A stretch of 20,000 nucleotides of DNA. Source: Baffinella frigidus. Lineage: Eukaryota; Cryptophyceae; Cryptomonadales; Baffinellaceae. Of the stretch, positions 119-18,176 are shown one piece after another (position 1 is the stretch's first letter; the number at the start of each line of letters is the position of its first letter). The stretch lies in NCBI GenBank assembly GCA_026770585.1, contig MU646423.1:430283-450282 (forward strand), in the 5' to 3' direction. Position numbers and translations under genes: made by a program. The notes beneath the pieces were generated by a model that ran no database searches, was not told where the DNA came from, and saw only the letters and a program-made list of their open reading frames with translations.

Positions 119-218
119 CCCAGCCACGTGTAGTTGGCAGTGTCGGTGAAGCCTTCCGTGAACACCCCGGGGGGCGCGTAGTTTGGAGGCGCTTTGTAGA
201 ACGATACGTCCACGCGCC
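119..218 (-). CDS. Exon E32: last exon in the window, possible start of another module
   Basis: Acceptor ctggaccag|GG, donor CTGGG|gtatcc, phase 1 to 2. It reads RVDVSFYKAPPNYAPPGVFT, then EGFTDTANYTWLG. It is clearly protein-like and embedded between TTTGGGG arrays. The SPF joint expected after a filamin C-half is absent; aromatic and Pro-rich text ending NYTW suggests a different module, perhaps PA14-like, but I cannot confirm that. Sequon NYT. Confidence 0.68.
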
Positions 219-533
219 CTGGTCCAGGGTTTGGGGTTTGAGGTTGATTATTTAGGTTTGAGTGTTTAGGGTTTAGGGTTCAGGGTTTATGGTGGAGGGT
301 TTGGGGTTCAGGGGGGGTTACGGTTTGAGGTTTATGGTTCATGATTTGTGGTTTAGGGTTCAGGATGTAGGGTTAGGGTTTAGGGTTTCGGGGTCGGGGT
401 GTACCGTATTCGTCGTACTGGCCGCACGGGCCGAGGCGTGTCGAGACGCATGACGGTTTCTGTCACATTTTTTGCCAGCACACGTCAGGGCACACAGTAA
501 ACCCCACACCTCAAACCCTAGGATCGAAACCAC
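219..533 (-). other. Intron E31-E32: TTTAGGG-like array
   Basis: 219-393 is a degenerate mixture of gggtttagg, gggttcagg and gggtttgg on the (+) strand. The remainder, 394-533, is mixed sequence with no exon I can support. Confidence 0.6.
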
Positions 534-573
534 CGTGGCGACCAAGTGCTTCCATCCGCAAAGGAATTTGGTA
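534..573 (-). CDS. Exon E31: 40-nt exon after filamin-type repeat G
   Basis: Acceptor gtctgccag|TAC, donor CCACG|gtggtt, phase 0 to 1, encoding YQIPLRMEALGRH plus one base. It is kept because its phases link E30 to E32 exactly and the joined text EYSLYQIPLRMEALGRHG is plausible. Two other frames are open across it, so the frame choice rests on the junctions. Confidence 0.55.
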
Positions 574-690
574 CTGGCAGACACGCCAGGGCACATAGGT
601 ATGCCGAAAGAAAGAATGATTGCAGGACAGACAGCGTCGCGCCTAGAGGCTGATTGCGAGCAACTCCAGGCTCGCAACCTTGCGCCACGA

Positions 691-762
691 GAAGAGAGAA
701 CGAGAGCGAGCAAGAGAGAAAGAGAGACAGCGAGAGAGAGAGCGAGATAGAGAGCGAGAAAG
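691..762 (+). repeat. (GA)n-rich tract
   Basis: Purine tract of gaga/gcga units. On the coding strand it is (CT)n, starting about 18 bases after the E30 donor. Confidence 0.85.
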
Positions 763-779
763 GATGTGAGGGGCAGCAC

Positions 780-836
780 CAGGCTGTACTCGGCCTCCGT
801 GGCGAAGGGGGCCATCGGGACGCAGTCGTGCAACAC
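780..836 (-). CDS. Exon E30: C-half of filamin-type repeat G
   Basis: Acceptor cgccacacag|GTG, donor AGCCTG|gtgctg, phase 0 both sides. It reads VLHDCVPMAPFATEAEYSL. With E29 it gives DGNNYRKVLHDCVP..., fitting 'DG.Y.V.Y.P....EYSL'. The usual AG before Y is replaced by EAE. The downstream intron begins with a long (CT) tract. Confidence 0.7.
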
Positions 837-1954
837 CTGTGTGGCGTTTGGGGGTTATTTGTCCTTTTTGGGGGGGAGTTTGAGTTTTGGGTTTGGGCGT
901 GAGTACCGTCGCCTTTACTCAGACAAAGCTGGCACAAGGGTCAAATCTTAAACCCTGCACCCTACACTCTAACCCCCTTGAACCCGGAACTCGAAACAAG
1001 GCACAGGGGAGTGAGCTGCAAACGAAAGAGTGGGGTCAGGGGGCGGCACCCCCCCGCGCGCGTTGTACGCAACTTCGTTGTTGAGTGCCGGCAGTGCTAT
1101 CGCCTCCTGGTTTGCGGATTGGGGTTTAGGTTTTAGGATTCAGGGTTTAGGGTTTAGGGTGTGATGACGCTCTGGTTTTCCTCGTGGGGTACAGAGCCTC
1201 TTGAGACGTTTTATGCATACATGTCAGAACGATCCCCCGCGTCTCTTCTTGCACTGAACCGGAGCTTGCGGCGTGCTGTGTGATCAATCAAACGACGGGT
1301 CCCCATTTCGTTGGCCTGCACGTGGCACTGATGACAGAGAGGATGATGCGGAAGAGGAGGGTACCTCGGGACCATCGACGACAGTACCGGACGCGGGCCT
1401 GCACGTGCGATCAACATTCAGAGACCTCTCGTGTTTTTTTTGGGGGGGGGTGCCGATGCACCACACAACTCGCGTGTGTCTGCGTGTTTCGAGGATTCGT
1501 CAATCATGCCATGGGGCGAATCCGGCAATCATGCACAACCTTACCATGATGAAACCAGGAAAAAAAATCTAGTCTAGCCAGAGTCCTTGAAACCGGACGC
1601 GGGATGAGGACCTCGTGTTGGCCCATCTGGACCAGACGCTCCCGCAACTATCCCCCGCAGAACAGCCTTCGTCCGGGAACACCTGCACGTCGCATTCCTC
1701 TTCACACACACACTCCATCAAACATTAGGTTTCATGCCCGATCCTTCTACCAACAACATGGAATTGATGGGTTGGGATTGATGCATCAATCCCAACCCCA
1801 ACCCAATTTAATTTCGGAACAAAACAGATTATGTCCCGCTATCTTAGGCTTCCGACGCCAAAGATAAGGTTGTACATGCTATTTTAGGTAAACAATGCTA
1901 TCTTACGCCTTTTTATGCAGACAGATTCTGGCATTTTCCGAGATGAAATTGAAC
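837..1954 (-). other. Intron E29-E30 (1118 nt)
   Basis: It holds a short CCCTAA-like stretch at 950-990, a TTTAGGG-like array at 1115-1162, a 10-base G run near 1441 and the palindrome at 1769-1798. Several overlapping open frames at 1211-1570 were not accepted as exons. Confidence 0.6.
1769..1798. repeat. 30-bp perfect palindrome
   Basis: gggttgggattgatg is followed at once by its exact reverse complement, with no spacer. It contains ATGCAT at the centre and could form a cruciform or an RNA hairpin. Confidence 0.9.
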
Positions 1955-2057
1955 CTTGCGGTAGTTGTTGCCGTCGCTGCCGCCGTTGTTGACGTTGGCG
2001 TTCCAGGTGTGGCAGTAGGGTCCCTCGTCGTTGTCGAACACCCGCCGGTTCCCGAAC
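1955..2057 (-). CDS. Exon E29: end of the N-half of filamin-type repeat G
   Basis: Acceptor ttttgcag|G. It reads FGNRRVFDNDEGPYCHTW, then NVNNGGSDGNNYRK; with E28 this gives RDKFGNRR, the expected 'RD.FGN.R'. Donor CGCAAG|gttcaa, phase 0. The end (SDGNNYRK) enters the next 'DG.Y.V' core, completed by E30. It is rich in Asn and Gly between FDNDEG and GGSDGNN. Confidence 0.85.
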
Positions 2058-2242
2058 CTGCAAAACCAGATCGGATCGTTGACTACACACGACTGACATT
2101 GAAAAATCCGACAGAGGAAGAGCAAGCGGCGGAGAGGAAGGGAGAGGGGGAAGGGGGACGTGGGGAATGACAAGGGGGGTTAAAAGGAGATTGCTAACGG
2201 TGGGAGAATGATGGGGGGGTACAAGGAGGAGGGGGGGGCTAC

Positions 2243-2301
2243 TTATCGCGAAGTTCGACGGCGAAGGTGCAGATCAACCCCGCACCGCACGACGTCAGAC
2301 C
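2243..2301 (-). CDS. Exon E28: N-half of filamin-type repeat G
   Basis: Acceptor gtgacag|GGT after a T-rich stretch; donor GATAA|gtagcc. It reads GLTSCGAGLICTFAVELRD and splits Lys in phase 2 after RD. This is the N-half 'GL....AG..CTF.V.LRD'. The two cysteines are seven residues apart. Confidence 0.85.
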
Positions 2302-2620
2302 CTGTCACCAAAAAATATATTGTTATGATTAATTATTAATTATTATTACCACGGCCCGCTGATTTTACATCTGGTTTTCGTCAGAGGAGGTTTTGGTGGG
2401 TGGGTTGTTATTTTCACTCAGGCAACAACGTGAGCAATTACCTTTCCCAAGTTTCTCAGATGGGTTTTTATTTTTGTGGAAATCGAACAAAGTGGGCCGT
2501 CGCGTGTCCCGATGTGGTTCACGTGGGCGAGAGTCTGGAGTGGGCGTTCTGAACAGGTCAAACACATGCAGTTTTGACACGTGTGAGATGGCTACATAAT
2601 CTGATCTGGGTTGGACGCAC
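2302..2620 (-). other. Intron E27-E28 (319 nt)
   Basis: It includes an AT-rich patch at 2312-2350 (repeated taattatt) that gives the T-rich region before the E28 acceptor. Nothing else recognised. Confidence 0.55.
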
Positions 2621-2687
2621 CTGGCCGAAGGCCGTGGACGACTTGAGGTCGACCTTGTCTGGCCGCACCGATATCATGAACGGCGAT
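2621..2687 (-). CDS. Exon E27: SPF-type joint between filamin-type repeats F and G
   Basis: Acceptor ggtgtgcag|A completes Arg. It reads SPFMISVRPDKVDLKSSTA, then FGQ, a textbook filamin joint (SPF.I.V.P.K.D...S.A.G). Donor GGCCAG|gtgcgt, phase 0. A diverged copy of its 5' part (gatatcatgaa) lies about 34 bp upstream in the preceding intron. Confidence 0.9.
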
Positions 2688-2797
2688 CTGCACACCCACA
2701 CACCGATATCATGAATGGAGAGGACGCACGGATCTCTATCGGCGAGAGGGAGGGATGGTATTCTAGTCAACTCGGTGTTGATTTTTTCGGGGTTGAG

Positions 2798-2832
2798 TTG
2801 GGGGGTTAAGGGTTTAGGGTTCAGGGTTGGGA
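2798..2832 (+). repeat. Short TTTAGGG-like array
   Basis: gggggttaagggtttagggttcagggt-type units sit six bases from the E26 donor, in the intron. Confidence 0.75.
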
Positions 2833-2838
2833 GGGTAC

Positions 2839-2900
2839 CGGTCGAGGTGCATGAGTTCAGCAGCCTCGTTCTTGAGCCTGATATTCAGCGGAAACGTCCC
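2839..2900 (-). CDS. Exon E26: last strands of filamin-type repeat F
   Basis: Acceptor gtcggcag|GGG. It reads GTFPLNIRLKNEAAELMHLD plus two bases of Arg, following E25 as 'TTA-G.F.L.I'. Donor CGACCG|gtaccc, phase 2, the same donor hexamer as E10. The insert NEAAELMHL lengthens the strand pair compared with E5 and E21. Confidence 0.83.
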
Positions 2901-3142
2901 CTGCCGACGCCGACACTTTTCAGTGTGAAGGTGTGGCGTGGTGTCTGTCAAAACAACTCTCTCTCTGTGATTTTCCATGCCGACGAATTCACTCGTGAGT
3001 GGTGTGACACTTGTCCATGTGTTGTCACGTCAATGTTTGTCACTGTCAATGAATCACTTGTCGTCGACGCCGCTTGTCTGTGTGCACCAAGTTGTGGCGA
3101 CCAGGCGTGTCATCTCTCTCTCTCTCGCTGATCATGACTCAC

Positions 3143-3235
3143 CGCAGTAGTGATGCTGTAGTCGACGCGGTAATTCGCATCTCCAAAATCGTGGAACGCG
3201 TACGACAGGAAGTGCGCCGGCCAGTAGTTTGTTTG
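3143..3235 (-). CDS. Exon E25: C-half of filamin-type repeat F
   Basis: Acceptor ggatgcag|CAA, donor ACTGCG|gtgagt (near-consensus), phase 0 both sides. It reads QTNYWPAHFLSYAFHDFG, then DANYRVDYSITTA, the core 'DFGD..Y.V.YSITTAG', with the glycine supplied by E26. Confidence 0.87.
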
Positions 3236-3601
3236 CTGCATCCCCCATCAAGCGTCAGGTTTCGACGCTCTTACAAAAGAGTCAGTTGTCGAGGCTCAAT
3301 GCAAGCATTTCCCACCATCCACCAGTCCCAGCTTGCCAAGACAGTTTTTTCACGTGCTTGCCAAGACAGTTTTTTTACAAGAGAGTCACTTCACAAGACA
3401 GTCGCTTCACAAAACAGTCGCTTCACAAAACAGTCGCGTCACGGCGCAAGCAAGAAGCCTCTGCAGAATAAGACGAGAGAACACACCTCAAAGCGAATGC
3501 CAGTATCGAAGTAGCGGACGCGCATTGGGACACACAAGACAGTTGTTTCACAAGGCAGTGGCAAGCAAAAACTTCCCTTGCAATAAGGCGGGAGGACACA
3601 C
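3236..3601 (-). other. Intron E24-E25 with 16-bp minisatellite
   Basis: 3334-3443 is a tandem array built on acagtcgcttcacaaa (two nearly exact units plus several diverged ones). 3430-3530 and 3545-3645 are copies of one ~115-bp unit that includes the E24 donor. Confidence 0.8.
3487..3529 (-). pseudogene. Copied 3' end of exon E24 with donor
   Basis: 43 bases match 3602-3644 with one difference, including the CTCAAA/donor boundary, and similarity extends on both sides at an offset of 115 bp. It encodes PMRVRYFDTGIRFE in the same orientation. It lacks the front of the exon and a convincing own acceptor. Confidence 0.85.
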
Positions 3602-3701
3602 CTCAAAACGAATGCCAGTATCGAAGTAGCGGACGCGCATTGGATCGAGAGAGATGCGGAATAGTGTCTCGGGGAGTGACCGCCAGATGTAGTTGTCGAA
3701 C
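3602..3701 (-). CDS. Exon E24: end of the N-half of filamin-type repeat F
   Basis: Acceptor gtgtgcag|G completes Met. It reads FDNYIWRSLPETLFRISL, then DPMRVRYFDTGIRFE, matching 'RD.FDN......F.ISL'. Donor TTTGAG|gtgtgt, phase 0. The last 43 bases, including the donor, are repeated with one change 115 bp downstream, at 3487-3529 inside the next intron; splicing to that second donor would add a partly duplicated stretch. Confidence 0.84.
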
Positions 3702-4010
3702 CTGCACACCCCCACATCCACAACCCGAAATCAGGAATGAGTATTTGCCGTGTTTAGGCATCCCTGATGGGGAATCAGTATGCATTACACATCAGTATCA
3801 CGGGACCCGTGCTGATTTCGGAGAGCGGTCGACTCCCAGGGTTGGGGCGCACGTAGATGAGGGCATACAACACAGCAAGGGGCGAGGCGGGCGCAACGCC
3901 AGGAAGGAAAGGAGGGGAAGGAACGGAGGGTCGCTGCCGCACACAGCAAATGGGGGGAAGACGCGACAAGAGCTCTTGTCGAAAGAAAATCAAGGGATCG
4001 AGTGCCGCAC
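3702..4010 (-). other. Intron E23-E24 (309 nt)
   Basis: Mixed sequence; a 170-codon (+)-strand open frame covers it but crosses exons and shows no family features. Nothing else seen. Confidence 0.5.
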
Positions 4011-4078
4011 ATGTCGCGGAGAGCAATATCGAAGAACACGAATTTGCCAGAGACGATCGCTCCTTTGTAGTCCGACGC
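4011..4078 (-). CDS. Exon E23: N-half of filamin-type repeat F
   Basis: It reads ASDYKGAIVSGKFVFFDIAL, then RD and two bases of Met; the N-half strand '..G..SG.F.F.IALRD'. The acceptor cacggag|GCG lacks a pyrimidine tract but keeps phase 0; an alternative AG 12 nt further in would not. The donor GACAT|gtgcgg leaves phase 2 right after RD, the same point as in E10 and E28. Confidence 0.79.
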
Positions 4079-4085
4079 CTCCGTG

Positions 4086-4144
4086 TTTGGGTTCTGGTTG
4101 CGGTGCGAGGGTCAACTTGGGTGCTGGTTGCGGAGTGAGGGTAC
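4086..4144 (+). repeat. 30-bp tandem duplication next to exon E23
   Basis: tttgggttctggttgcgg... is repeated once at an offset of 30 bases, with few changes, just upstream (gene sense) of the E23 acceptor. Confidence 0.8.
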
Positions 4145-4300
4145 ACGAGTGAGAACACAGTATACTCCAGCCAAATGTCAGGCGCGGCAAACACTGGCGA
4201 CACAGCCATAGAAAAGAATGCAATGCAGCTGTGGCAGGATTTGGATTGTGTCACACATTTTTCGAGAAAGTGCTGTTACTGTTTCTGGGTTGGGAAAGAC

Positions 4301-4384
4301 CTTGTTCTTGGAAGCGCCAGTGCCGTTGATAACACAGGACTTGGGGTGGAACTTCTGCGGCGACACGATGAACTCGTAGGGCGC
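4301..4384 (-). CDS. Exon E22: SPF-type joint between filamin-type repeats E and F
   Basis: Acceptor ctgtttcag|GCG, donor AACAAG|gctttc-type start gtcttt, phase 0 both sides, 28 codons. It reads APYEFIVSPQKFHPKSCV, then INGTGASKNK, matching 'SPF.F.V.P....P.SC...G.G'. Sequon NGT. Confidence 0.86.
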
Positions 4385-4915
4385 CTGAAACAGTTGAAGA
4401 CCCTGCCAGAAGCAACGAAAACCGTTGTCAGACATGAAACTGTGTCAGATACGAGACAGCAATGAAAATCGTTGTCAGACACGAGACTGTGCTGGTCCTT
4501 GCAAAGCCTTAACGCCCAGATGTATCATGCATCCTTACTTGCGAAGTTGGGATCTCCAGAACTGCGCCCAACTTGGCAAGACATCTAAATTCGGAGCATG
4601 GTGCACACACCGTGCGCTTTAACGTGTCATTTCAATCTCACAACACCGCGTCTTAGCAGCCCTGTCAAACCCTGAACATGTATACTGTATGTCAAACCCT
4701 GAACATGTATACTGTATACGGCCTACCCAAGTCAACGCCTCATGCTGAACGGCCCTGGGAAATAATGGCGAGATCATCACAGATGAAAGCAAGGACGGTC
4801 GTCCTTGCTTTGCGAGACGAGAAGTGGCAAGGGGGTGCATCCGACACTTCTCTCCCTTCTTTCGTCGAAACGTGATAGGGGGAGGGTTGAATTTGGTGGT
4901 AGAGGGAGGGGGCAC
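4385..4915 (-). other. Intron E21-E22 (531 nt) with three small repeats
   Basis: It holds a 28-bp repeat at 4417-4444 and 4464-4491 (gaaaatcgttgtcagacacg-type), an exact 27-bp tandem duplication at 4664-4717, and a 9-bp-stem hairpin at 4789-4808 (gcaaggacg/cgtccttgc). Confidence 0.8.
4664..4717 (+). repeat. Exact 27-bp tandem duplication
   Basis: gtcaaaccctgaacatgtat plus seven bases occurs twice head to tail without mismatch, so it is probably recent. Confidence 0.92.
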
Positions 4916-5014
4916 CTGGTGAGCGACAGAGAGAGAGTAGAGGCCCGCCCGCGTGATGTTGTAGAATACTGAGTACGTCCCATCGTCGTGATCCATCGAT
5001 GAAAAGTTGCCAAC
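4916..5014 (-). CDS. Exon E21: C-terminal half of filamin-type repeat E
   Basis: Acceptor gtgggcag|GTT, donor CACCAG|gtgccc, phase 0 both sides. It reads VGNFSSMDHDDGTYSVFYN, then ITRAGLYSLSVAHQ. This is the clearest filamin core in the window: DDGTYSV.Y..TRAGLYSLSV. Sequons NFS and NIT. Confidence 0.92.
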
Positions 5015-5500
5015 CTGCCCACAACTCGCTTTACAAAACACCACTTTCTCTTTCCAAGCAGCGGAGCATGACACATCGTAAAACAGTCGTTGACACGTCT
5101 GTTGTTTTTCCTGGTACAAAGCCTGCCCTTATCAGTTGTCCCGTGAGAATGGTCAACTGTTCTGGGACTTTGGTCCGTGCATGCGTTGCGTCTTAGCCAC
5201 ACCACACCCTCTGAAACCAGGCTGGTGCATACCTGCAGGTCCTACAACCCATCCCAAGTCACGTCGTGTCATCGACTGGCAAGCCCCGGTTTGAACAGGG
5301 GGTAACTCCTGGTAACAATCCGGCAACACCAGCCGATGAAAATCATCAATGTGGAGGGCGAGTGGGAGGATCGACTGGGGGTGAAGGGAGACGGGTCCGT
5401 TTCTTAAGGCCCATAAACATATGCATCACTCAACTCAAGGCCCACCTACCTGTGACCTGCATCGAGAGTAATAAAGAAGAAGAAGGAGGCGGGGCAGGAC
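5015..5500 (-). other. Intron E20-E21 (486 nt)
   Basis: It begins, in gene sense, with one copy of a dispersed repeat (5397-5490). The remainder is mixed sequence with a short pyrimidine tract. Confidence 0.55.
5397..5490 (+). repeat. Dispersed repeat, copy 1
   Basis: It matches 16559-16655: shared blocks include atcactcaactcaaggc, cctacct, atcgagag and aaagaagaagaa in the same order, with small indels. Family unknown. Confidence 0.72.
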
Positions 5501-5674
5501 CCTGGTAGCCTGGGAGGGATCCGTGGGAGAGGAGGCGACGCCTTGCGACGTCCTCGACGAGGTGTTGCCGCGCGTGTCCGCCTGCACCATCACCATTTGA
5601 CCATCAACGGCTGAAATGTGTGGCACGCCCCGTCTCACACACAATTGATCGCAAATTCCGGGGTTGTACAGGTA
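5501..5674 (-). CDS. Exon E20: N-terminal half of filamin-type repeat E (longest exon)
   Basis: Acceptor tactgcag|TAC. It reads YLYNPGICDQLCVRRGV, then DGQMVMVQADTRGNTSS, a good filamin N-half ('Y.PG......GV...G..F.V.A.D.RGN'). The donor used is ACCAGG|gtcctg (phase 0, 58 codons); it shares gtcctgc with E16. A GC donor 9 nt earlier (CCCAG|gctacc) would also keep the frame. CDQLC could form a short disulphide loop. Sequon NTS. Confidence 0.79.
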
Positions 5675-5894
5675 CTGCAGTACATATAATTGAGCAGGGT
5701 CCAACGTAGTCCGCTGTGTGGCGGGAGCTCTGCAGCCCGTCAATCTAACGTCAATGTCAAGTGAGTAGGGGGAGGGGGGGGGGGGGGGGGGTACAAGCTC
5801 TTGCACGAAGCCTTCGATGGCATGCCGGGGCCCTGTCGCGTCCGAGTATGCCTGGAAGTATAATTGCCCTGCCGGACACCCCCGCCATGCCCGT

Positions 5895-6052
5895 TCAGAG
5901 TGACTCTTCGGGGTACGATTTGGAGTGACTCTTAGAAGTGACTCTTCGGGGTGACGATTCAGCGCGACTCTTCAGAGTGACGATCCAGCGTGACGCTTGG
6001 AGTGACGTTTCAGAGTGACGATTCGGCGTGACGATTCAGAGTGAAGTTCGAT
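5895..6052 (+). repeat. Degenerate minisatellite, agtgacgattc units
   Basis: About ten units of 13-18 bases built on gagtgac[gt][ac]ttc(g/a). Copies differ at several positions, so the array is old. Confidence 0.8.
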
Positions 6053-6437
6053 AGAGTCTCGCGACTGTCAACGTTCTGTACCGGGTCGGGGACTCGTCCG
6101 CGCAGCCTTTGTACACACAACCCCTTTGATTAGTCAACAGTCCCGGGAATCTCGAATTTCAGAGAGATCCCCGCAGCACTTCCTGGTGTGGCGTTTCGGC
6201 TGGCCCGACAGGGTACGTGACTTGTGTAAAGTCACTCCAACTAGTCCTAGACGGGCATGTATGGTAAATTAGAAATTGGAATCAAAATCTAGATTTGAGG
6301 GACGAGGCAAGGGAGGGGAAGACCTATGGAATTTGTCTCGCGGGAGTAGTAGAGCTCCTGGAGACTGTTGCTCTTGATTGTGGGGTTGGTGGGCAGGCTT
6401 TCGATGAACATGTACACCTGCGGAGCACGGACGATCC

Positions 6438-6524
6438 TTAGCGAAAGGGAGATAGAGAAAAAAAGAGGAGAGAGGGAGGGAGAGAGAGGGAGAGAGCGAT
6501 ATATATGTAGAGAGAGAAAGACCG

Positions 6525-6573
<49 letters not shown>

Positions 6574-6650
6574 AAGAGCGACAGCGAGAGAAAGAGAGAA
6601 AAAGAGAGAGCACGATAGACCGACAGAGAGAGACAGCGAGCGAGATACGT
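6438..6650 (+). repeat. (GA)n tract, 210 bases
   Basis: Almost pure purine on the (+) strand with rare tata and cgat breaks. It is the source of long Ser-Leu and Arg-Glu open frames that are not genes. Confidence 0.9.
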
Positions 6651-6966
6651 GAGCAAACGACGGGAGTGAACAGCCCTCAGCATGGCGTCCAAAAAAAACT
6701 CTAGCTCTGCCTCATTTGGGTTGACCGACTTTTCTCATGTCGACAAGCTGCGTTTGCGTTTCAGTGAACTGTGGAGCGAAAATAAAAACGGGCTCGCCAA
6801 ATTGGTCGGACCTAATAGTCTGAGACAAAACTAGACTCCTTGTATTTGAGCTAATGCTTTTGCAACTGTGCCCCAAACGTCACACGCCAGACACCAAACC
6901 CCGAACAGGGAACCGGCAACGCCAAACGGCACACCCCGAATAGGGAAAGGGCTTTCCGCGCGAGAC

Positions 6967-7047
6967 CTCAGAATCGATGACGAGGCCTTTCCACGACTCG
7001 CGCAGCGGATTCAGGTTCGCCCTGATCAGCCCATACGGCCCCACGAA
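6967..7047 (-). CDS. Exon E19: SPF-type joint between filamin-type repeats D and E
   Basis: The acceptor is a C12 tract plus gcag; the donor is TCTGAG|gtctcg; phase 0 both sides, 27 codons. It reads FVGPYGLIRANLNPLRESW, then KGLVIDSE, equivalent to 'I.GSPF.V.V.P....S.V'. The proline of SPF is kept (GPYG) and the serine is changed to glycine-proline order. Confidence 0.78.
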
Positions 7048-7120
7048 CTGCGGGGGGGGGGGGTTGATCAGCGACAAAGAAGGCTCCCCGCAGGGGCCGC
7101 CGGAGGCTCTTGCCCACCAC

Positions 7121-7161
7121 CGTGAGGCCTATCACGACCAAGGGCTCATAACCTGGGTCGT
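7121..7161 (-). CDS. Exon E18: C-half of filamin-type repeat D
   Basis: Acceptor ttgcttcag|AC, donor CTCACG|gtggtg. With the base carried from E17 it reads DDPGYEPLVVIGLT and leaves phase 0. It is followed by the shortest intron seen here (73 nt, 7048-7120), which contains a run of 12 C on the coding strand. Reading through that intron would shift the frame, which supports splicing. Confidence 0.7.
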
Positions 7162-8122: not shown

Positions 8123-8254
8123 CTGATTGTAGAATGCTACTCCGGGGTCTTTCGGGAGGAGGATCTGCGCCTCGAGGCCAACTCGCTCCAGCTGCGCGCA
8201 TTCCTTCATCGATGTCTGCAGGAACGACTCGAACAGGTCGCCGATCACGTACCC
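8123..8254 (-). CDS. Exon E16: N-half of filamin-type repeat D, unusually long loop
   Basis: Acceptor caaatcag|GGG, donor AATCAG|gtcctg, phase 0 both sides, 44 codons with high coding character. It reads GYVIGDLFESFLQTSMKECA, then GLEAQILLPKDPGVAFYNQ. The first six residues continue the RD/GN turn of the N-half. The middle (SFLQTSMKECAQLERV) looks helical and is longer than the usual filamin loop here, so it may be an insertion. Confidence 0.76.
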
Positions 8255-8261
8255 CTGATTT

Positions 8262-8405
8262 GGTTTTGGGGTTGAGGGTGTGGGGTTTGGGGTTTAGGGT
8301 TTAGGGTTTAGGGTTTAGGGTTTAGGGTTTAGGATTTTGGGTTTGGTGTTGGGGGTTTAGGGCTGAGGGTTTGGAGTTTAGGGTTGAGGGTTCAGGGTTT
8401 AGGGT
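8262..8405 (+). repeat. TTTAGGG array filling intron E15-E16
   Basis: 8287-8333 is about six perfect TTTAGGG units; the flanks are degenerate. Almost the whole 155-nt intron is this repeat, so on the coding strand it is CCCTAAA. Confidence 0.9.
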
Positions 8406-8409
8406 AAAC

Positions 8410-8443
8410 CTGCTGCTGCGCGACTTTCATGTCGACCTTGCAC
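8410..8443 (-). CDS. Exon E15: 34-nt microexon in the N-half of filamin-type repeat D
   Basis: Acceptor cccggcag|G, donor CAGCAG|gtttac. It enters in phase 2, leaves in phase 0 and encodes CKVDMKVAQQQ, fitting the 'C.F.V.A.D..G' strand of the N-half. The intron that follows (in gene order) is a nearly pure CCCTAAA array. Confidence 0.66.
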
Positions 8444-9101: not shown

Positions 9102-9150
9102 TGAGGGGGCTTGGCACATTGACGGACGATGCATTTTGACTCCTGAGCGG
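8921..9150 (-). repeat. ~95-bp tandem array of exon E14 plus flank (2.4 copies)
   Basis: Units start near 8921, 9016 and 9114 on the (+) strand; each carries an attgacg(c/g)ac.atgcatt core. In minus sense each encodes (E/S)KCIVRQC.(K/E)PP. Only the 9102-9142 unit keeps both ctcag and gtaaga splice sites. Confidence 0.85.
9102..9142 (-). CDS. Exon E14: 41-nt exon opening filamin-type repeat D; head of a tandem array
   Basis: Acceptor ccgctcag|GAG and donor CCTCA|gtaaga, the strongest donor in the window. It reads ESKCIVRQCAKPP and leaves phase 2, so E15 completes Gln and continues CKVDMKV. The result resembles the 'P..S.CVVRG....' opening of a filamin repeat. Two further copies of this exon with ~50 bp of flank lie directly downstream (8921-9113), but their donor is mutated, so they are read as intron. 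Confidence 0.66.
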
Positions 9151-9198
9151 ACATGCCGTGTGTCGATGGCATCGAGAACTCCGAACATCCCACCTCCT

Positions 9199-9465: not shown

Positions 9466-10294
9466 CTCGTCGCGTTCAACTCCTCGATTGAAATCCATGT
9501 GTTGAGCCAGGAGTCGCAGGCCGTGAATCCTAATTCCTAAACCAAACCCCACTCCCCAAAGTGCAAACTCCCAGCGCTGACCCCTCAAACCCGGGGGCAG
9601 TGCGTCTTTGACATGGGGGACACGCCCCCTGCCGAGGCAGGGGGCTTGGAGAGCACACCTCTCCGTTGGGGCAACATCCGTCATCGCACGCAGCAATGTT
9701 GCGGCGGTACGCGCACGTCAGCGCTGGTGGGATGTTGATCGATAGGTCGGCGCCTGGTTGGTCCTGGTTTCATGTTTGGGGTTTCGGGTTCGGGGCTTGA
9801 GGTTGACTTTTTCCTTCCGTGTTCTTCCGATGTTGATCGATAGGTTGGCGCCTGGCGTGTCCTGTGGAAGGGATCGCGTGCTGAGGATGCAACCGGCTTC
9901 TGCTTCTTCTGCTTCTGCTTCGAAAGGGATAATGCCGGTCCAGACTGCAGCCGGGCGGTACAGGTGGACACTCTACTCTCGGCATCAACATAATGGTGGC
10001 AATCCGTAGGGTGCTGTCATGAGCGAGGGGCGGGCGGTGATGGGCAGGCGATCTGGGGTCGACGAGTGGCTAGCGAGTGTCATCGGAGGCAGGGTGCATC
10101 CATGTGGGCGGGTTCACGCAAACACCGAAACCCCTCCTCCAATCCAGGGCTAAAGGCGCGGTCCTAGAAACCGAACCCTAGTGCCTACCGCAGGTCATAC
10201 GGAATCCTAATTGGCCATACGGAATGCTAACCATCGGGCCCACCGTAGGCCATACGGACTGGTTACTGTCGGAGGGGTATTGAAAGTGGCGAAC
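9466..10294 (-). other. Intron E12-E13 (829 nt)
   Basis: It holds a 9-bp-stem hairpin at 9625-9644 (ccccctgcc/ggcaggggg), a 38-bp direct repeat at 9731-9767 and 9829-9866, (cttctg)n at 9897-9921, and three gccatacgga units at 10194-10258. A Cys-rich open block (9558-9716) is discussed under rejected items. Confidence 0.65.
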
Positions 10295-10375
10295 CTGGAG
10301 GAGGCGGAGGCGGCACTGGGTCATGTTGGATCGGTACATATCCTGGCACTTGCACGACACGTCTTCGATCACCGC
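10295..10375 (-). CDS. Exon E12: C-terminal half of filamin-type repeat C, cysteine-rich
   Basis: Acceptor cgaaagcag|GCG just downstream of the long TTTAGGG-like array; donor CTCCAG|gttcgc; phase 0 both sides, 27 codons. It reads AVIEDVSCKCQDMYRSNMTQ, then CRLRLLQ. The pattern V.D....Y...T...RL.L fits a filamin C-half in which the GDGT turn is replaced by a CxC motif. Family assignment rests on position as much as on sequence. Sequon NMT. Confidence 0.66.
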
Positions 10376-11334: not shown

Positions 11335-11337
11335 CTC
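11318..11337. repeat. Hairpin over the E11 GC donor
   Basis: gaggcacg, four bases, cgtgcctc: a perfect 8-bp stem. The last three exon bases and the GC dinucleotide are in the stem. Confidence 0.8.
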
Positions 11338-11425
11338 GTGAATGATGGGGCAGGAGCCAAGCGACAGCCCAGAAAGAGTCATGTCGAAGCGCTCGCCTCC
11401 AACCGTGCGGGGGTTCACAGCAGAC
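11335..11425 (-). CDS. Exon E11: end of the N-half of filamin-type repeat C, GC donor
   Basis: Acceptor tgtgtgcag|G completes the glycine of E10 and gives SAVNPRTVGGERFDMTLSG, the 'N.RTVGG..F.V.L.G' segment. To join E12 in phase 0 the exon must end at CACGAG with intron gcacgc, a GC donor. The only nearby GT (GGGCT|gtcgct) would leave phase 2 and break the frame. The donor lies in a perfect 8-bp hairpin, 11318-11337. Confidence 0.74.
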
Positions 11426-11791
11426 CTGCACACAGGTGCCACGCCAATCAAGGGGAATTGTTGATGCGCAGACATTTCAGGACCTGGGTGCGGAGGCATG
11501 GGACGCCACCAACAAGTCAAGTCACCACTGCACCCAAGCGACCTCTCGTCGTAAGCCAAACTTTTTTTTGTATCACCCATCTCCAGGCTTGAGAGTATTA
11601 ACGAAGAAGCAAGCATCCGACCGGTGTCACACGGGATGGCCGCGGGGGGGGGGGGCGTGCCGTGGCCATACACTCCAACCCTGGACCCTGAACCCTAAGC
11701 GCTAAACCCTGAACCCTGAACCCATACATCAGGGAGGGTCCCTGAAGCCTTTTACCTCACCCCTAACCCCTGAACCCTAGCAAGGGGGTAC
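11426..11791 (-). other. Intron E10-E11 (366 nt), telomere-like array in opposite orientation
   Basis: 11676-11778 carries ccctgaaccctaa-type units on the (+) strand, opposite to nearly all other arrays here. A G12 run lies at 11644-11655. Confidence 0.75.
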
Positions 11792-11901
11792 CCGCGATCG
11801 CGAATGAGGAGGTGGCGGAGGTCGCCCGCAGTGCCGTTCTTGATGCCGCTGCCCTGCACGGTACTGTTTGGGCCGTACGTCGGCGCCGCGAGCACCTTCA
11901 C
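11792..11901 (-). CDS. Exon E10: N-terminal half of filamin-type repeat C
   Basis: Acceptor gcacgcag|GTG behind a (CT)-rich tract. The exon starts VKVLAAPTYGPNSTVQGSG, then IKNGTAGDLRHLLIRDRG, matching the filamin joint and N-half (GSGI..GTAG....LIRDR). It leaves in phase 2 at CGCGG|gtaccc, splitting the codon after RDR; E23 and E28 are interrupted at the same place. Sequons NST and NGT. Confidence 0.87.
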
Positions 11902-11953
11902 CTGCGTGCAGAAGAGGGTGCAAGGTCAGAGAGAGAGAGGGGGGGGTAGAGAG

Positions 11954-11988
<35 letters not shown>

Positions 11989-12709
11989 TAGAGAGAGAGA
12001 GGGCGAGAGGTACAGCAGAAGAGGGTGTCAATTACCCGCGTTCAATGGCCAACGCCCCCCATGTCACTATGTGTACTACCGAGGAGGGCTGCGTGCCGCC
12101 GCGGGTGCAAGGTCATACACCCGCAGCGGGACGTTGCGTGTGTCGCTGGAAATTTGACCATTCGTCAATCACCCAGCACTCAACGGAAATGCTGTCTAGC
12201 CGCGTTTGACCATAAATGGTCAAATCATAACTGGCCAAATCTCCCAGCGTCCCCCGCGCCACTGTTGACTGGGCCAGGCAGATGGTATACCAGGAAGGTG
12301 GCGTGGGGGCAGGTTTTGAAGCGGGAGAAGCTGGAATGAGTCAACGGCTGGAGTCTAGCTCTCCATACAACAGATGTAAAGCATAAAATCCAGGACTAAA
12401 TGGCGAATGAAATACTTTTATTGCCAGCCTGGTTTGACTCAGGCAGAGCTATAGCGTGCTAATGGCCGGGAGGGGTCATCATCTGGGATAGCAGGCATGT
12501 CAAGACCTCACCCTTCGCCGCAACATGTAAGCCAATCGTCATTTCGTGCGTATGGTCCACACGATGGACAAGGAGAGTTACGTTGAACCCAGATGCTGGG
12601 GGCTAACAAGACAAAATTTGCACCAGAAAAGCCCCGACGTTAATTGCCTGAAGGCAAGTTGATTTTTGATGAAAGGTCCGTAGTCCACCGTGTGGCTGAG
12701 GGAGGAGAC
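11902..12709 (-). other. Intron E9-E10 (808 nt)
   Basis: (GA)n at 11926-12012 forms the pyrimidine tract before the E10 acceptor. Near 12431-12447 lies a 17-base motif shared with 19901-19917. The rest is mixed. Confidence 0.6.
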
Positions 12710-12814
12710 CTTGAAAGGAGAGCCGACGATATGTTCGCAGGCGGGGCGGCAGAACATCACGGACAGGTTGTGAGGCCCCGCGAGCACTGGCATCCACTCC
12801 ACCGCGTAGTCGCC
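12710..12814 (-). CDS. Exon E9: C-terminal half of filamin-type repeat B
   Basis: Acceptor attcggcag|GGC; it reads GDYAVEWMPVLAGPHNLSV, then CEHIVGSPFK, a textbook filamin end (GDY.V.W.P..AG...L.V....HI.GSPF). Phase 0 in and out; donor TTCAAG|gtctcc. The two cysteines in FCRPAC could pair. E10 continues the SPFK|VKV strand. Sequon NLS. Confidence 0.88.
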
Positions 12815-13125
12815 CTGCCGAATACAATCGTGTCAAATTCAAAACAAAAAAAATCAAATTCAAATCAAACAAACTCATATTATCGTCAGTATCGATCAAC
12901 TGCACCGCTCAATCGAATTCAAGCGTTTTGATCGGTGCAGGCTCGCGAGTAGAATCAGGTGTCGGTCGATTTCTGCCGAACCTCTGGTGCCAGTCGGTGT
13001 GGGGATATGATGGGAGCTCCGACACTGAGACAGCACTAGTAATCTGCCAGATGTAAACCCCAGTTGACTGAAAGTGCTAGGTGTAAACCCGGACGAGCGA
13101 AGCGCGCAGGTGAAAGAAAGCGATT

Positions 13126-13160
<35 letters not shown>

Positions 13161-13485
13161 CGGGTGAGTGGCAGAGTGGCTGAGTGGGAGAGTTAGAGAA
13201 TGGGGGGGGTGCTGACCAGCGAAAGCTCAAGCTCTTACTCACGCAAAGCCAAAAGCTCTTATTCACGCAGAGCTGGACTACCCTCCGTTTAAAATCGGCG
13301 GTTAAAATCGGCGGGGTGGCCGCGTGCGCAGGAGTGCTGGCATCCCACATAACATCGCTCCTAGGTGTAATTCCAGGCTTGGTGTAATCCCCAGTTGACG
13401 GATAGTGCTAGGTGTCAACCCGGGCGGGCGGTGCGGTGTGCGCAGGTGAGAGAGAGCGATATAGTGAGAGAGCGCGTGGGGGAGT

Positions 13486-13534
<49 letters not shown>

Positions 13535-13560
13535 GGGGGAGAATGGGGGGGGGGGCAGAC
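12815..13560 (-). other. Intron E8-E9 (746 nt) with an 80-bp direct repeat and G48
   Basis: About 80 bases at 13051-13130 recur at 13382-13470 (shared: ccccagttgac, agtgctaggtgt, cgcaggtga, agcgat), each followed by a purine tract. A 24-bp tandem lies at 13230-13277. The G run is listed separately. Confidence 0.78.
13486..13533 (+). repeat. Poly-G run of 48 bases
   Basis: Uninterrupted G on the (+) strand, C48 in the transcript, followed by further G clusters to 13555. Its length may be unreliable in an assembly. Confidence 0.85.
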
Positions 13561-13638
13561 CTGCCAGAGCTCATCACCAGCAAAGATAGCGAGCGCCGTC
13601 GCCGGCGAGGTTGAGTTGCGCTTCCTCGATTGGTATAC
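13561..13638 (-). CDS. Exon E8: middle of filamin-type repeat B
   Basis: Acceptor gtgggcag|GTA, donor TGGCAG|gtctgc, phase 0 on both sides. The 26 codons read VYQSRKRNSTSPATALAIFA followed by GDELWQ. On its own it is weakly diagnostic, but it bridges E7 (..VTVAFELPE) and E9 (GDYAVEW..) at the right length for the strand that leads into 'D.GDY.V'. The other two frames hold longer chance ORFs. Its donor sits 25 bases from a 48-base G run on the (+) strand. Sequon NST. Confidence 0.68.
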
Positions 13639-14178
13639 CTGCCCACCACCCGGAGTCAGTCACCAGAGTGTCTCCGAGCGTCTCAAAGTGCATTAATCCC
13701 AAACGACTGCCTGTTCTACCTGCAGTGCGTGATGAATTTGAGCCCTGCCAATGGCATATGGGATGCACGAGGAGGTCGTGCGTGAGATCAGTAGCAGCAC
13801 GTGTGCGGAGAATGTCTAGCGCTGCCTTGGTCACCTGCACTGACTCTTCGTAAGTAGACATCCTCGGTCAGAGGTGAAAATCGGGGGGGAAACAGGTCCA
13901 GCCTCACCATGTTGATGAGACCAAATCAGAATGAGACTCGTGAAGGAAGCCGGTGCTACGGCCCGCACGCAACCCCCGTGCGGGGATTAGAGTTTAGGGT
14001 TTAGAGTTGGTAGGAATGTGACCACGCCAGAGGCCTCGGGGGAAACCGACGCTTTATCAACGTCAGATCTGACGTCGTTAACTTCAGTATTCAACAGATT
14101 CCCCCTGAAAGATGTCAGAAGTGGATGCTCCCCGCCCTCTTGCGTGGGTGCTCCCAGCCCTCTGGCGTGGGACGGGAC
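13639..14178 (-). other. Intron E7-E8 (540 nt)
   Basis: Short TTTAGGG-like patch at 13984-14009. A long open frame (13574-13861) covers the other half but lacks family features and overlaps E8 in the wrong frame. Confidence 0.55.
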
Positions 14179-14307
14179 CTCGGGAAGCTCGAAGGCGACA
14201 GTGACATTCTCGTCCTGAGAAGCGAAGTTTCCGAAGGCGTCCTGGATGCGGAGCATGAAGAATGCCGAGAACCCCGCGATCGCGTGCGACAGCCCCATCC
14301 CATACGC
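14179..14307 (-). CDS. Exon E7: N-terminal half of filamin-type repeat B
   Basis: Acceptor atatttgcag|GCG; it begins AYGMGLSHAIAGFSAFFM and continues RIQDAFGNFASQDENVTV, the standard filamin N-half (GxGL..AG...F.I...DAFGN). Phase 0 in and out; the donor CCCGAG|gtcccg gives a product end of FELPE that joins E8. The frame stays open for some 60 more codons past the donor, but that stretch runs into TTTAGGG-type repeat and lacks family features. Sequon NVT. Confidence 0.87.
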
Positions 14308-14842
14308 CTGCAAATATTCGATTGAATTGAATGCGCAAACTGATTCAATTTAAAACACCGATTTGCGTTATCTTTGGGGAATGGTGCCATTTTAGCCTCG
14401 ACATAGCTTTGCCAAAGAACAAAATCCATCCCTAATAGCAACACGGTGATTTGAATCCAAAGCTCGACCCCATCCCATACGCCTGCTCCCGCAATAACTA
14501 TTTCACTATTCAAGATCCACAAAATCGAAGACTGGAGTCTCCAAAACCCAAACCGCTTTGGTGTTTCTCCCTTTCACACATCCGTTTGCCTTGCACCAAG
14601 CCAGTCACAGCAGATGTGATGCCAGATTGAACACTTCACTTTGTGTGCATGCCACAGCGTGGGGGGTGGGAAAACGCATGCGGCAACTCCTCCAACAAGT
14701 TGGCATTCAGCATGCACCATCGACTACGGTAGGTCCTCGGGATCCTACCAGAGACGCTGGGGCCTAAGAGCGCTACGATCGACCCTAGTTCCTATCGTAT
14801 GATGACTTGCCCACAAATCGAGAAGTTGGGGTGCAAGCGCAC
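14308..14842 (-). other. Intron E6-E7 (535 nt) with decoy acceptor
   Basis: It contains an 18-base exact copy of the E7 acceptor region (14468-14485). The rest is mixed sequence with T-rich patches. Confidence 0.65.
14468..14485 (-). pseudogene. Copy of the acceptor and start of exon E7
   Basis: caggcgtatgggatgggg is identical to the intron/exon boundary at 14293-14310 and would start AYGMG in the same phase 0, but the next codons (SSFGF...) do not continue the repeat. Confidence 0.85.
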
Positions 14843-14897
14843 CTGGACAGAATCGACGGCCGTGGGTCCCGAGTCCACGAATATCGAGTACGGCGAC
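14843..14897 (-). CDS. Exon E6: SPF-type end of repeat A and link to repeat B
   Basis: Acceptor cttgggcag|G; the exon reads SPYSIFVDSGPTAVDSVQ, the filamin 'GSPF.V.V..GPT...S' joint between repeats. It enters in phase 2 and leaves in phase 0 at GTCCAG|gtgcgc. Of a much longer open stretch in this frame (about 14792-15382) only these 18 codons look filamin-like, so the rest is read as intron. Confidence 0.82.
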
Positions 14898-15479
14898 CTG
14901 CCCAAGTCGCAAACGTTCCCAAGAGTCACACTCTCGAAAGAAATTAAAAAAAACAAAGCAGCACGGCACCAGCCCTCGGAAGTAAACTTTTGCGGTCGTT
15001 TGGCCCAACTCCCGTTCTGCAATGTGTATGCGAAGAGGGCGCCAGAAACCGGCGCCTCCTGGTACATATCCGGCCGCGGAAAGACGAGTGAAGGTCCCCA
15101 AAGCGGGTCCTGTTGCCGCGACGAGGAATCGAACAAGGCAGGAGAGTCCCACGTCAGTTGAAAAATCACAAGGCATTCATGGGGCCAAGCCTGCCGTGAT
15201 GAGGTGCCTTCCAGGTGCAAAAGTTTCCCAGTGCAGTCAAGACCCGGGCTAGCAATCGCGCGTGCCACACGATTCTGGATTGAAGCATGGCGATACAGGT
15301 GAGCGAAGTGCGTCGAGGAGGTTGGTTGCAGGGCACCGACCGTGTCGCAGGCACCCGATAGGTGTGCGAACCGAGAGGGCATCCCATCACCCTACACCCA
15401 GGTCGCTTTGCATCAAGAGTGGGCATCAAGGGCCGAGGACTGACATCGCCACGTTGCTCTCTCGAGGCAGTCAGAAGTC

Positions 15480-15625
15480 AGGGGTGAGCGTGTGGGGTCC
15501 AGGGTTGATGGGTGTGGGTGAGGGGCTAGGGTGTCAGGGTTTGAAAGATTGTGGGTTCCGGGTTTAGGGTTTAGGGTTTAGGGTTTGGGGTTTAGGGTTT
15601 GGGGTTTAGAGTGTAGGAGGTAGGG
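15480..15625 (+). repeat. TTTAGGG-like array
   Basis: Degenerate at first, with near-perfect units at 15559-15600, in the same orientation as most other arrays. Confidence 0.85.
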
Positions 15626-16558
15626 GTTTGACATGGGAGGAATCGGCGCGAGGCCCTTCTGATTTGCGAAGGTGTATGTGCTGCACAGCGAGGCTGCCGA
15701 CCCAGGGGGACACCTGCCATCCACAGAGAGAATCAATGTTTGTGTCAGAGAGATATATAGACAGAGTGAGTGAGATAGTGAATGTGCAAGTGTGTGTGTG
15801 TGAGAGAGATGGCGATAGAGAGTGAGCGTCACACGCATCCCGCGCGCATTTGGTTAGAAAGCGTGAGTCAACCGGACTGAGGAAGCGCTGAGGAAGCGCT
15901 AGGCAGTGGGCAGAGTGTCAGTGCTGACGCTGCGTCGCAGAGTGCTTACGTCCCAAGATCGACGCCATGCCGAGTCACAAAGGAGAAACAAGTACGTGTG
16001 TTACGGATCGAATCCAGGTTGGTGGGGAATAGAGAAATTACTTGAGAAAAGTGTCCCACAGAGGAACCGATTCGCATGGGGTCCTTGAACCCGCTTGAGA
16101 GGGGATGTCAGGACAGCATCTCGTGGACTTACACGGCCTTCACTGAAGGAAATACACGGTGGTCAAGGTGGGTTTGATCCGTGAAAAACCACGTGCGTAT
16201 CAGCACGAGAGTGTCACGCAGCAGCTGCCAGATGCTGGCTCTCGCGTGTAAGGCCCCGTGCGTGCGATTTTTGGTGTTTTGACAGAAGTTTGGTGTGTTG
16301 ACAGAATTTGGGTGTGGTGACTGTGGCAGGCGAGGGACCAAGGGCGTGCCGCACCAGATGGGATGGTCCCCAGCAAGCATCATCACCACCAGGCAACACC
16401 ATATGGTGGTGCGTGATCTTTGAAAGTGAGATCGAGGGGGTGGAATGGGGAGGGCGGCGTACCAAGTATTGCCTCTCAGGCTTTCGATCTGAGCTGTCCT
16501 CTGTGCTCCCATGTGGCACCGCAGCTCGCCTGCGAATCAATCGAGTTTGAGCTGTCAC

Positions 16559-16655
16559 GTTTCCGAGGCGGGCTCATAGACTAAGGTATCACTCAACTCA
16601 AGGCGTCAAGGCCTACCTAGGAACTGTATCGAGAGCAACAAAGAAGAAGAAGAAC
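16559..16655 (+). repeat. Dispersed repeat, copy 2
   Basis: Partner of 5397-5490, same strand; it contains an extra gtcaaggc duplication. It ends in a purine-rich aagaagaagaa tail. Confidence 0.72.
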
Positions 16656-17292
16656 AAGGCATGTCAGAGCAGGAAAAACAGCACAAGACTCGCTTGTTGA
16701 AAAATCTCAGCATCGAAGGAATCGAGGCGAGCCGCAGCGTCACTGAAAATCGGACCTAAATTGCCACACCTGGGATGCGGCAATGCACTGTTTCTGATGT
16801 TGTGTCGACTGCCACTGAGCAGCCACCGAGGCCTTCGATGGCGTGTCCATCTTAACGATTCTGGTACAAATTGGAAAATCGTTTCAGGGTAAGGGGCTTG
16901 AAATGATCCCCGGAAACCTGGGGAAGATATAACTCGGGAACTGCTAAGTGGTGACTGAGCCACACGGATGTGTCCAGGACGACACGTCAACCGGAAAGAA
17001 AGCACCACAATACTCCTGAAAGTCAACAGGCATAGAATTCTGAAAGTGGCGAAGAGGGAGTATAACCGTTGTTAAGAGAGCCTTGATTGCCGAGCGGGAC
17101 GGCCGTCGGGGTCTGGCACGGCTGCGTGTTGCTGCGCACGCGAGCGACAGGGGTGGTTTTACTGGCAAGCAACACGCTGCGTTTCATTCCGCGCTGTTGC
17201 ACCCTGGAGAGTGTGATTTGATGGGTAGGCAATACATGTCAGCGTAGAGTAGACAGAGCCGCCACCCCAGGTAGCGAGCCCGAGCTTCCATA

Positions 17293-17472
17293 CGAGAATG
17301 CTAGAGGGGCCTATTGAAGACCGGTTGATTTCACGAGTGGGCATCTGTGTAGTAACTTTCGTGAGGTTGGTCACCTAACTCTGCGGACTTAGCGAAGTCA
17401 AGAGGTTGGTTGCGTTATCTTGGTACAAATATTTACAACCCCACATGTAAATAGGGTCCTCTAGCATTCTCG
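17293..17472. mobile_element. 180-bp element with 23-bp terminal inverted repeats (MITE-like)
   Basis: cgagaatgctagagg.. at 17293-17315 pairs with 17450-17472, 21 of 23 positions matching, the outer 15 perfectly. There is no coding capacity. No clear target-site duplication is visible in the flanks, so the boundaries are set by the inverted repeats alone. Confidence 0.62.
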
Positions 17473-17504
17473 AGTGGTTTCGGCGGCTGTGTGAAGTGAT
17501 GAGG

Positions 17505-17572
17505 GAACGTTGTTTCCGCACCTCGTGAGTGAGCCCTACCACCTTAACCACTATGCTACAACACCACTTTGG
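17505..17572 (-). repeat. tRNA-like block, possible SINE head
   Basis: In minus sense, ttgtagcatagtggttaagg matches the tRNA D-arm/A-box pattern well. The expected B-box (gttcgaatcc) is only weakly present as acaacgttccc and the arms do not fold into a complete cloverleaf, so it is not a working tRNA. It may be an old tRNA-derived retroposon. Confidence 0.35.
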
Positions 17573-17787
17573 CGAGGCTCTGCGTGCAGAGCGTCAGGGT
17601 GCCACGCGAAGATAACCTGTGTATCAAATCAATTACGTATTTCTATTTTTATGCACTGATAAAAGTATTTTTGGTCAGAATCCGCGCAAAGTTGACAGAT
17701 TTGTGGGTAGGTTGACTTTAACAACAGGTCGACTTGATACACAGGTCATCGTCGCGTGGTGGCTCTCATGTTGGCGGGGGTCATAAC

Positions 17788-17903
17788 CTGTGCTTGAGCG
17801 TGATGTGCATATCGTAGCGTCCGTTGAGGGTGAGGTTGTAGAGGACAACGTACGTTCCATTACCCATGTTTGACACGTCCGCAAAAAATGACTCACCCAG
17901 TTC
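17788..17903 (-). CDS. Exon E5: C-terminal half of filamin-type repeat A
   Basis: Acceptor ctcaaccag|GAA; the frame reads GNGTYVVLYNLTLNGRYDMH, a near-perfect filamin 'GDGTY.V.Y.LT..G.Y.L' core, with sequons NGT and NLT. It ends ITLKH plus two bases of Arg at CACAG|gttatg (phase 2). E6 supplies the third base and continues SPYSIFV, exactly as E26 is followed by E27 (..LDR|SPFMIS), so no exon appears to be missing across the long intron. Confidence 0.87.
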
Positions 17904-18038
17904 CTGGTTGAGGGTTTTGCAGGGTTAGGGTTCAGAGTTTAAGATTTTGCGGCGCCAAAGTGTCAATCGAGCCTGGTCCCTGCGTCAATCGAGGGACACA
18001 TCGTCAATCGAGCTTGGTTAAGTTTGCGTAAAAAATGG

Positions 18039-18125
18039 CGAGACCAAGTAGACTGAGACAGAAGACTGAGACAGTGAGACCAAGTAGACTGAGACAGAAG
18101 ACTGAGACAGAAGACTGAGACAGAG
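18039..18125 (+). repeat. Minisatellite, agactgagacag units
   Basis: Units agactgagacaga, alternating with tgagaccaagt, are arranged in about two longer periods just after the E4 donor. Confidence 0.88.
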
Positions 18126-18141
18126 GTAGGGAAGGGGGCAC

Positions 18142-18176
18142 CTGGTGTACGAGAGCAACGTTCCACTGGTCCCCCC
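18142..18176 (-). CDS. Exon E4: 35-nt microexon, end of the N-half of repeat A
   Basis: After acceptor tttcag the exon gives GGDQWNVALVHQ, the canonical 'GGD.F.V.L' segment that follows '..D..N....' in filamin repeats. It enters in phase 1, completing the codon left by E3, and leaves in phase 0 at CACCAG|gtgccc. That donor hexamer context is identical to that of E21. Its fit to both neighbours is the main evidence for the GA donor of E3. Confidence 0.75.

Follow-up and report, generated by a model that had tools for sequence, protein, structure and literature searches.

The stretch of the Baffinella frigidus assembly analysed here (20,000 nucleotides [nt] of contig MU646423.1, hereafter the window) carries on its minus strand the middle part of a large gene with at least 36 exons. 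We have built a gene model in which these exons run from position 19617 to position 119 and are spliced into 3009 nt of coding sequence, translated into 1002 residues with no stop codon. The exons measure 34 to 132 nt (median, 87 nt) and the 35 introns between them 151 to 2074 nt (median, 366 nt), giving 11.6 introns per kb of coding sequence. Because splice sites bound the first and the last exon, the gene extends past both window ends, upstream beyond position 20000 and downstream beyond position 1. Considering also the protein records described below, the window very probably represents the middle of a single nuclear gene whose product would be a secreted multidomain filamin-repeat protein and whose introns would have been gained in its lineage.

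The splice pairs were GT-AG in 33 of the 35 introns, GC-AG in the intron after 11335 and GA-AG in the intron after 18329. Junctions of phase 0, 2 and 1 numbered 23, 8 and 4, respectively, and the frame would be lost if any single intron but one were retained. Among the 121 open reading frames of at least 60 residues in the window, there was none that corresponded to the gene. An earlier note, made from the letters alone, had proposed that 29 tiny exons of 33 to 174 nt between 18176 and 119, each with splice signals, join in phase into one minus-strand gene larger than 19 kb that no single open frame reveals. The tiny exons proved real, in nearly the size range proposed, and their number was revised to 33 in that interval, with three more (19617-18329) upstream of it. 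The size and strand of the gene, the in-phase joining and its invisibility in single frames were all borne out, and so were the splice signals, with the exception of the GC and GA donors.

Public proteins support the spliced reading

A first protein search, for which the query was a 910-residue hand-spliced draft, returned 8 proteins from 6921 candidates. The draft still included three pieces (19347-19278, ~9527-9453 and 7323-7252) that were later discarded because two of the proteins, P0001 and P0008, are continuous without them. P0001 is a public protein of Joint Genome Institute (JGI) source, an intron-free record with 861 residues and a contig of 6348 nt. Exact peptides placed 830 of its 861 residues on the minus strand of the window, in 30 blocks, and none on the plus strand; with three codon-shuffled controls, 0 residues were matched. 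Residues 1-795 of P0001 agree letter for letter with the spliced reading, residue 1 being a start methionine and counting as weak evidence.

The blocks define 29 junctions, 28 of which had a splice solution giving the protein exactly (27 GT-AG and 1 GC-AG), whereas a GT-AG solution was found for 0.54% of random junctions (20,000 trials). The contig of P0001 is shorter than the ~14.8-kb genomic span of its exons, so this protein probably comes from a complementary DNA (cDNA). The introns thus fit the spliceosomal type, 34 of the 35 having GT-AG or GC-AG ends and 28 of 29 junctions being reproduced by a putative cDNA. P0001 corresponds to the window gene itself or to a near-identical one, differing in that it has no introns and that its tail is out of frame.

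We have also considered that the locus could be a pseudogene, a decayed copy into which repeats were inserted and which they split. In favour of this are the one GA donor and the simple and telomere-like repeats that fill the introns. Yet the 1002 residues are free of frame breaks as well as of stops, the splice pairs are canonical at all but two introns, and an intron-free record is identical over 795 residues. This makes decay extremely improbable.

The 5' part of the model was supported by P0008, which aligns without gaps and with 69% identity to window residues 1-110. This alignment and their splice sites define exons 1 (19518-19617), 2 (18945-19038) and 4 (18142-18176, where the interval of the earlier note begins). 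Exon 3 (18329-18424) is followed by the GA donor at 18327-18328, and the whole of intron 3 contains no GT. The codons joined over this GA-AG intron read LSGGDQW, the same as in P0008, in which ARLSGGDQW is uninterrupted. Exon 6 (15633-15713), placed by phase and splice sites only, is the least certain of all.

Exons 7 to 35 match P0001 exactly, the last of them to residue 795. Besides those taken up with the domains below, they are, in the 5' half, exons 7 (14843-14897), 9 (13561-13638), 11 (11792-11901), 12 (11335-11425, with the GC donor), 13 (10295-10375), 16 (8410-8443, 34 nt) and 17 (8123-8254, the longest, with 132 nt). They continue with exons 18 (6967-7047), 19 (6324-6417), 20 (5795-5868), 21 (5501-5581), 23 (4301-4402), 24 (4011-4093), 25 (3602-3701), 26 (3143-3235) and 27 (2839-2900), and end with exons 29 (2243-2301), 30 (1955-2057), 31 (1612-1682), 32 (1365-1398, 34 nt), 33 (1050-1106), 34 (780-836) and 35 (405-459). 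For the last junction of P0001 (405/218, exons 35/36) there was no splice solution, because P0001 reads exon 36 (119-218) out of frame, as if by one extra base; the shifted residues still match this exon. Two other relatives, P0071 and P0006, are in the frame of the window here. P0071, which is 78% identical, stays in that frame across exons 35/36 (DEYG-RTDVPFYKAPPNF against DEYG-RVDVSFYKAPPNY).

An exon chain was also derived statistically, from codon usage and splice-site weights. It recovered most of the main exons but not exons 3, 6 and 29, put several exon ends in the wrong place and contained many spurious short exons; it was dropped as evidence.

Domain composition of the product and of its relatives

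The spliced protein matched the Pfam Filamin profile (PF00630), as the earlier note had anticipated, in three stretches (E-value 5.5e-28; 98.1 bits against a gathering score of 26.9). Filamin strands were recognized in exon 5 (17788-17903, GNGTYVVLYNLTLNGRYDMHI; Pfam Filamin over residues 56-147 of the spliced protein), exon 8 (14179-14307), exon 10 (12710-12814, GSPFK) and exon 22 (4916-5014, DDGTYSVFYNITRAGLYSLSV). The piece from exon 22 gave on its own a weak Filamin match of 21.4 bits, below the cut-off. The motif SPFMISV is found in exon 28 (2621-2687). A second profile, Ig_GEX2_N (PF23616), was also matched (E-value 1.5e-11; 44.8 bits against a cut-off of 27 bits), its match at 202-297 including exon 8; this match is non-specific, since it overlaps a Filamin match in P0001. 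Exons 14 (9659-9763) and 15 (9102-9196) contain cysteines, and the cysteine-containing stretch between the filamin/Ig-type repeats was without a Pfam match. When profiles of the family alignment were compared with the PDB, the gelation factor (3.2e-23) and filamin A (3e-18) were matched and are by sequence the nearest solved structures; the downstream part of the relatives matched a legume lectin (1.3e-12).

A second search, with a chimeric query of 2187 residues and 7988 candidates scored, yielded at least 63 proteins. Two of the relatives are long and apparently full-length. P0010, a EukProt record of 2402 residues from Hanusia phi (Cryptophyceae, Geminigeraceae), is 44% identical to window residues 1-980, the counterpart being its residues 641-1648. 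P0009 (2611 residues) is 53% identical over window residues 175-979 and 48% over 1-144. The window is therefore colinear with this family over its whole coding part. P0010 shares with the window protein both the Filamin and the Ig_GEX2_N matches, and is known here as a protein record alone. Both long relatives have Pfam matches to EGF, to Filamin (in three stretches), to legume-type lectin and to ephrin-receptor-like modules. Relative to the part encoded in the window, EGF lies upstream, and the lectin and the ephrin-receptor-like cysteine modules lie downstream; in the window gene, such downstream modules would fall past position 1. The Lectin_legB match was above the cut-off in P0003, P0004, P0006, P0009 and P0010; Lectin_L-type_dom was below it in P0009 and P0010, as were some EGF and ephrin-receptor-like matches (in P0004, for example) with respect to their Pfam cut-offs. 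P0008 has an upstream CUB match.

The earlier note had read the repeats as those of a filamin/ABP280 protein. The repeats were confirmed, and "filamin-repeat protein" is a correct description that covers only part of a multidomain protein. A true ABP280-type filamin would be a cytoplasmic actin cross-linker, and its CH domains could lie upstream of the window. Besides the Pfam and PDB matches of the repeats, such an identity could draw on animal filamins that list PF00307, which we take to be the CH domain, among the weaker matches of the second search. The named animal filamins, however, rank low and align over just 4-25% of the 2187-residue query. No CH domain was matched at an E-value of 0.01 in P0009 and P0010, a result for the relatives, as the 5' end of the window gene lies outside the window. 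These proteins, which belong to the same repeat family as the gelation factor and filamin A, have instead lectin, EGF and ephrin-receptor-like modules, and they are rich in N-glycosylation sequons (22 in P0009 and 29 in P0010) and cysteines (88 and 86, respectively). Given these modules and the missing CH match, we consider an ABP280-type cytoskeletal filamin very improbable.

The part of the protein encoded in the window has 13 sequons and 28 cysteines. P0010 (residues 17-36) and P0009 (residues 72-98) each have a hydrophobic stretch towards the N terminus, where a signal peptide would lie. Together with the modules of the relatives, these features suggest that the product is probably a secreted, rod-like cryptophyte surface protein with a lectin, and not a cytoskeletal filamin. 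It would be secreted through the endoplasmic reticulum, and the Ig-like repeats would form a rod carrying the lectin and EGF modules at a distance from the cell. At the cell surface, the protein could then mediate adhesion or bind glycans; alternatively, it could be part of a surface layer or of a flagellar hair.

Several points weigh against this view of the gene and its product. P0001 lends no support to exon 6 or to the GA donor that follows exon 3, and exon 6 is also absent from the statistical exon chain. P0001 leaves the frame at its last junction, so that its tail after residue 795 is out of frame, and it is known as a protein only, without contig DNA or sample type. The statistical chain, when unconstrained, was phase-consistent at just 37 of 69 junctions; phase alone is thus no proof of a gene, and the proof comes from the relatives. 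On the side of the product, the secreted surface role is deduced from domains, and the hydrophobic stretch of P0009 is ~70 residues away from its start. AlphaFold, run on P0001 with 12 sequences, gave a mean predicted local distance difference test (pLDDT) score of 36.9, and this model was not used.

GEX2, a plant gamete attachment protein, has the Ig_GEX2_N match in common with the window protein. The architecture of the relatives is unlike that of GEX2, which to our knowledge has no lectin and EGF modules. P0011, P0012 and P0013, with 1548-1661 residues, form another branch of shorter proteins in this family, and their best stretches are 26-33% identical to the window part; in P0012 the domain order is filamin, then legume-type lectin, then EGF matches. 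Relatives were also sought in viral contig and genome contig sets, and none was confirmed there. In our literature search, no paper was found that brings together cryptophytes, filamin and lectin.

Twenty-three intron sites are apparently empty in genomic-looking relatives

The gene as such is of a general type already known, but the number of its introns is unusually high, and the introns are its main interest. We have therefore compared the 35 intron sites with the protein records of relatives that seem to be genomic. P0002 (68% identical; a cluster of 12 contigs, the longest of 90 kb) is continuous at all 12 window intron sites in its aligned stretch (introns 8-19). P0071, from a cluster of 2 contigs (longest, 52.6 kb), is continuous at all 11 sites in its stretch (introns 25-35). 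P0073 (54% identical) is continuous at 11 sites, of which 10 were counted, because the first falls in an unrelated start. As judged from these protein records, 23 of the 35 window intron sites are apparently empty in genomic-looking relatives. The other relatives compared were continuous at 133 of 143 sites, the remainder falling at alignment gaps; since these records could stem from cDNAs or from spliced gene models, they were left out of the contrast.

The same contrast could have arisen by loss, if P0002, P0071 and P0073 lost their introns via reverse transcription, or if they are intron-free copies or cDNAs. What leaves room for this explanation is that the relatives are known from proteins and not from DNA, and that P0002 and P0071, each representing a cluster, could derive from a contig shorter than the longest one. 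Against it, P0073 is a single record from a single contig of 22.7 kb. Moreover, P0002 has, exactly at the intron-20 site, an in-frame insert of 66 residues whose first residue is V and whose last is Q, which would fit a GT..CAG intron left unspliced. According to an excerpt of the report on two published cryptomonad genomes, their genes contain a mean of 5.3 and 3.5 introns (PMC6260743), which also argues against loss. All considered, loss seems to us rather unlikely, and intron gain in the lineage of the window is the simpler reading of these sequences. The high exon count would then be due to introns gained in this lineage and absent from the relatives.

A possible contribution of telomere-like repeats

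Three introns consist almost entirely of degenerate telomere-like arrays, which nearly fill them from donor to acceptor. When aligned to a (CCCTAAA)n concatemer, intron 3 (18177-18328, the GA-AG intron, 152 nt) was 95% covered, intron 16 (8255-8409, 155 nt) 95% and intron 35 (219-404, 186 nt) 96%, with scores of 112.5, 99.5 and 84.0, respectively; the maximum for shuffled introns, with five shuffles per intron, was 11.5. The arrays were called independently by Tandem Repeats Finder (TRF), as 20.7 copies of a 7-mer at 18183-18327, 20.1 copies at 8265-8405 and 23.6 copies at 226-392 (65% matches). Scores above 15 were obtained for 12 of the 35 introns, and in 10 of these 12 the repeat is CCCTAAA-oriented on the coding strand. 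Introns 16 and 35 are among the 23 apparently empty sites, P0002 being coding-continuous at the former and P0071 and P0073 at the latter. Together, the apparently empty sites and the three telomere-like introns suggest that introns were gained in this particular lineage, possibly with telomere-like DNA as their source.

We tentatively go one step further and propose, as a conjecture that we regard as more doubtful than not, that the introns were born in bulk in a once intron-poor coding sequence, part of them formed straight out of telomere-like repeats that had entered exons. Such repeats might have been inserted at healed DNA breaks. An insert in the CCCTAAA orientation would supply CTAAC/CTAAA motifs, which resemble branch points, and a C-rich tract, so that only a flanking AG|G context would then be needed for splicing. 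Interstitial telomere repeats could in this way be a source of introns.

Interstitial telomeric sequences of mammals are described, in the part of a published study available to us, as short, non-terminal telomere-like arrays introduced at DNA breaks (PMC7215372). The same part reports that introns harbour 31% of the human arrays and exons none of them; its authors call the effect of such arrays on splicing interesting to test (PMC7215372). The arrays described here are likewise short and non-terminal, and differ in that three of them make up nearly entire introns. Among the literature matches listed, titles and abstract openings held nothing on introns made of telomere repeats.

The window also illustrates that a gene read by hand, without any revealing open reading frame, can be real: a large protein in exons with such a small median size is invisible to ORF calling. 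With its intron density and its 23 sites continuous in apparently genomic relatives, the gene may be a test bed for intron origin. Of the mechanisms of intron gain, a passage of a 2012 review stated that their study had "not even started in earnest" (PMC3488318).

Other sequence features of the introns

An all-against-all comparison of the 35 introns of this gene showed similarity chiefly between repeat tracts, and no introner family emerged from it. Splice sites were often spanned by short direct repeats (3-6 nt), which agree with the usual AG|GT..AG|G consensus and were therefore not counted as target-site duplications. Introns 5 (17787-15714) and 21 (5500-5015) share an 82-nt match (79%, with the low-complexity filter on), which perhaps represents a dispersed element, and introns 9 and 10 share a match of 25 nt.

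The partial intron after exon 36 (1-118) contains a related GGGTTTG array at 1-100 (TRF). Tracts of (CT)5 or longer occur on the coding strand in introns 2, 9, 10, 14, 18 and 34, and (GA)5 in intron 26 only, which amounts to a strand bias. Finally, intron 9 includes a 78-base G run at 13478-13555 (TRF, 85% matches), likely a hard spot for assembly.

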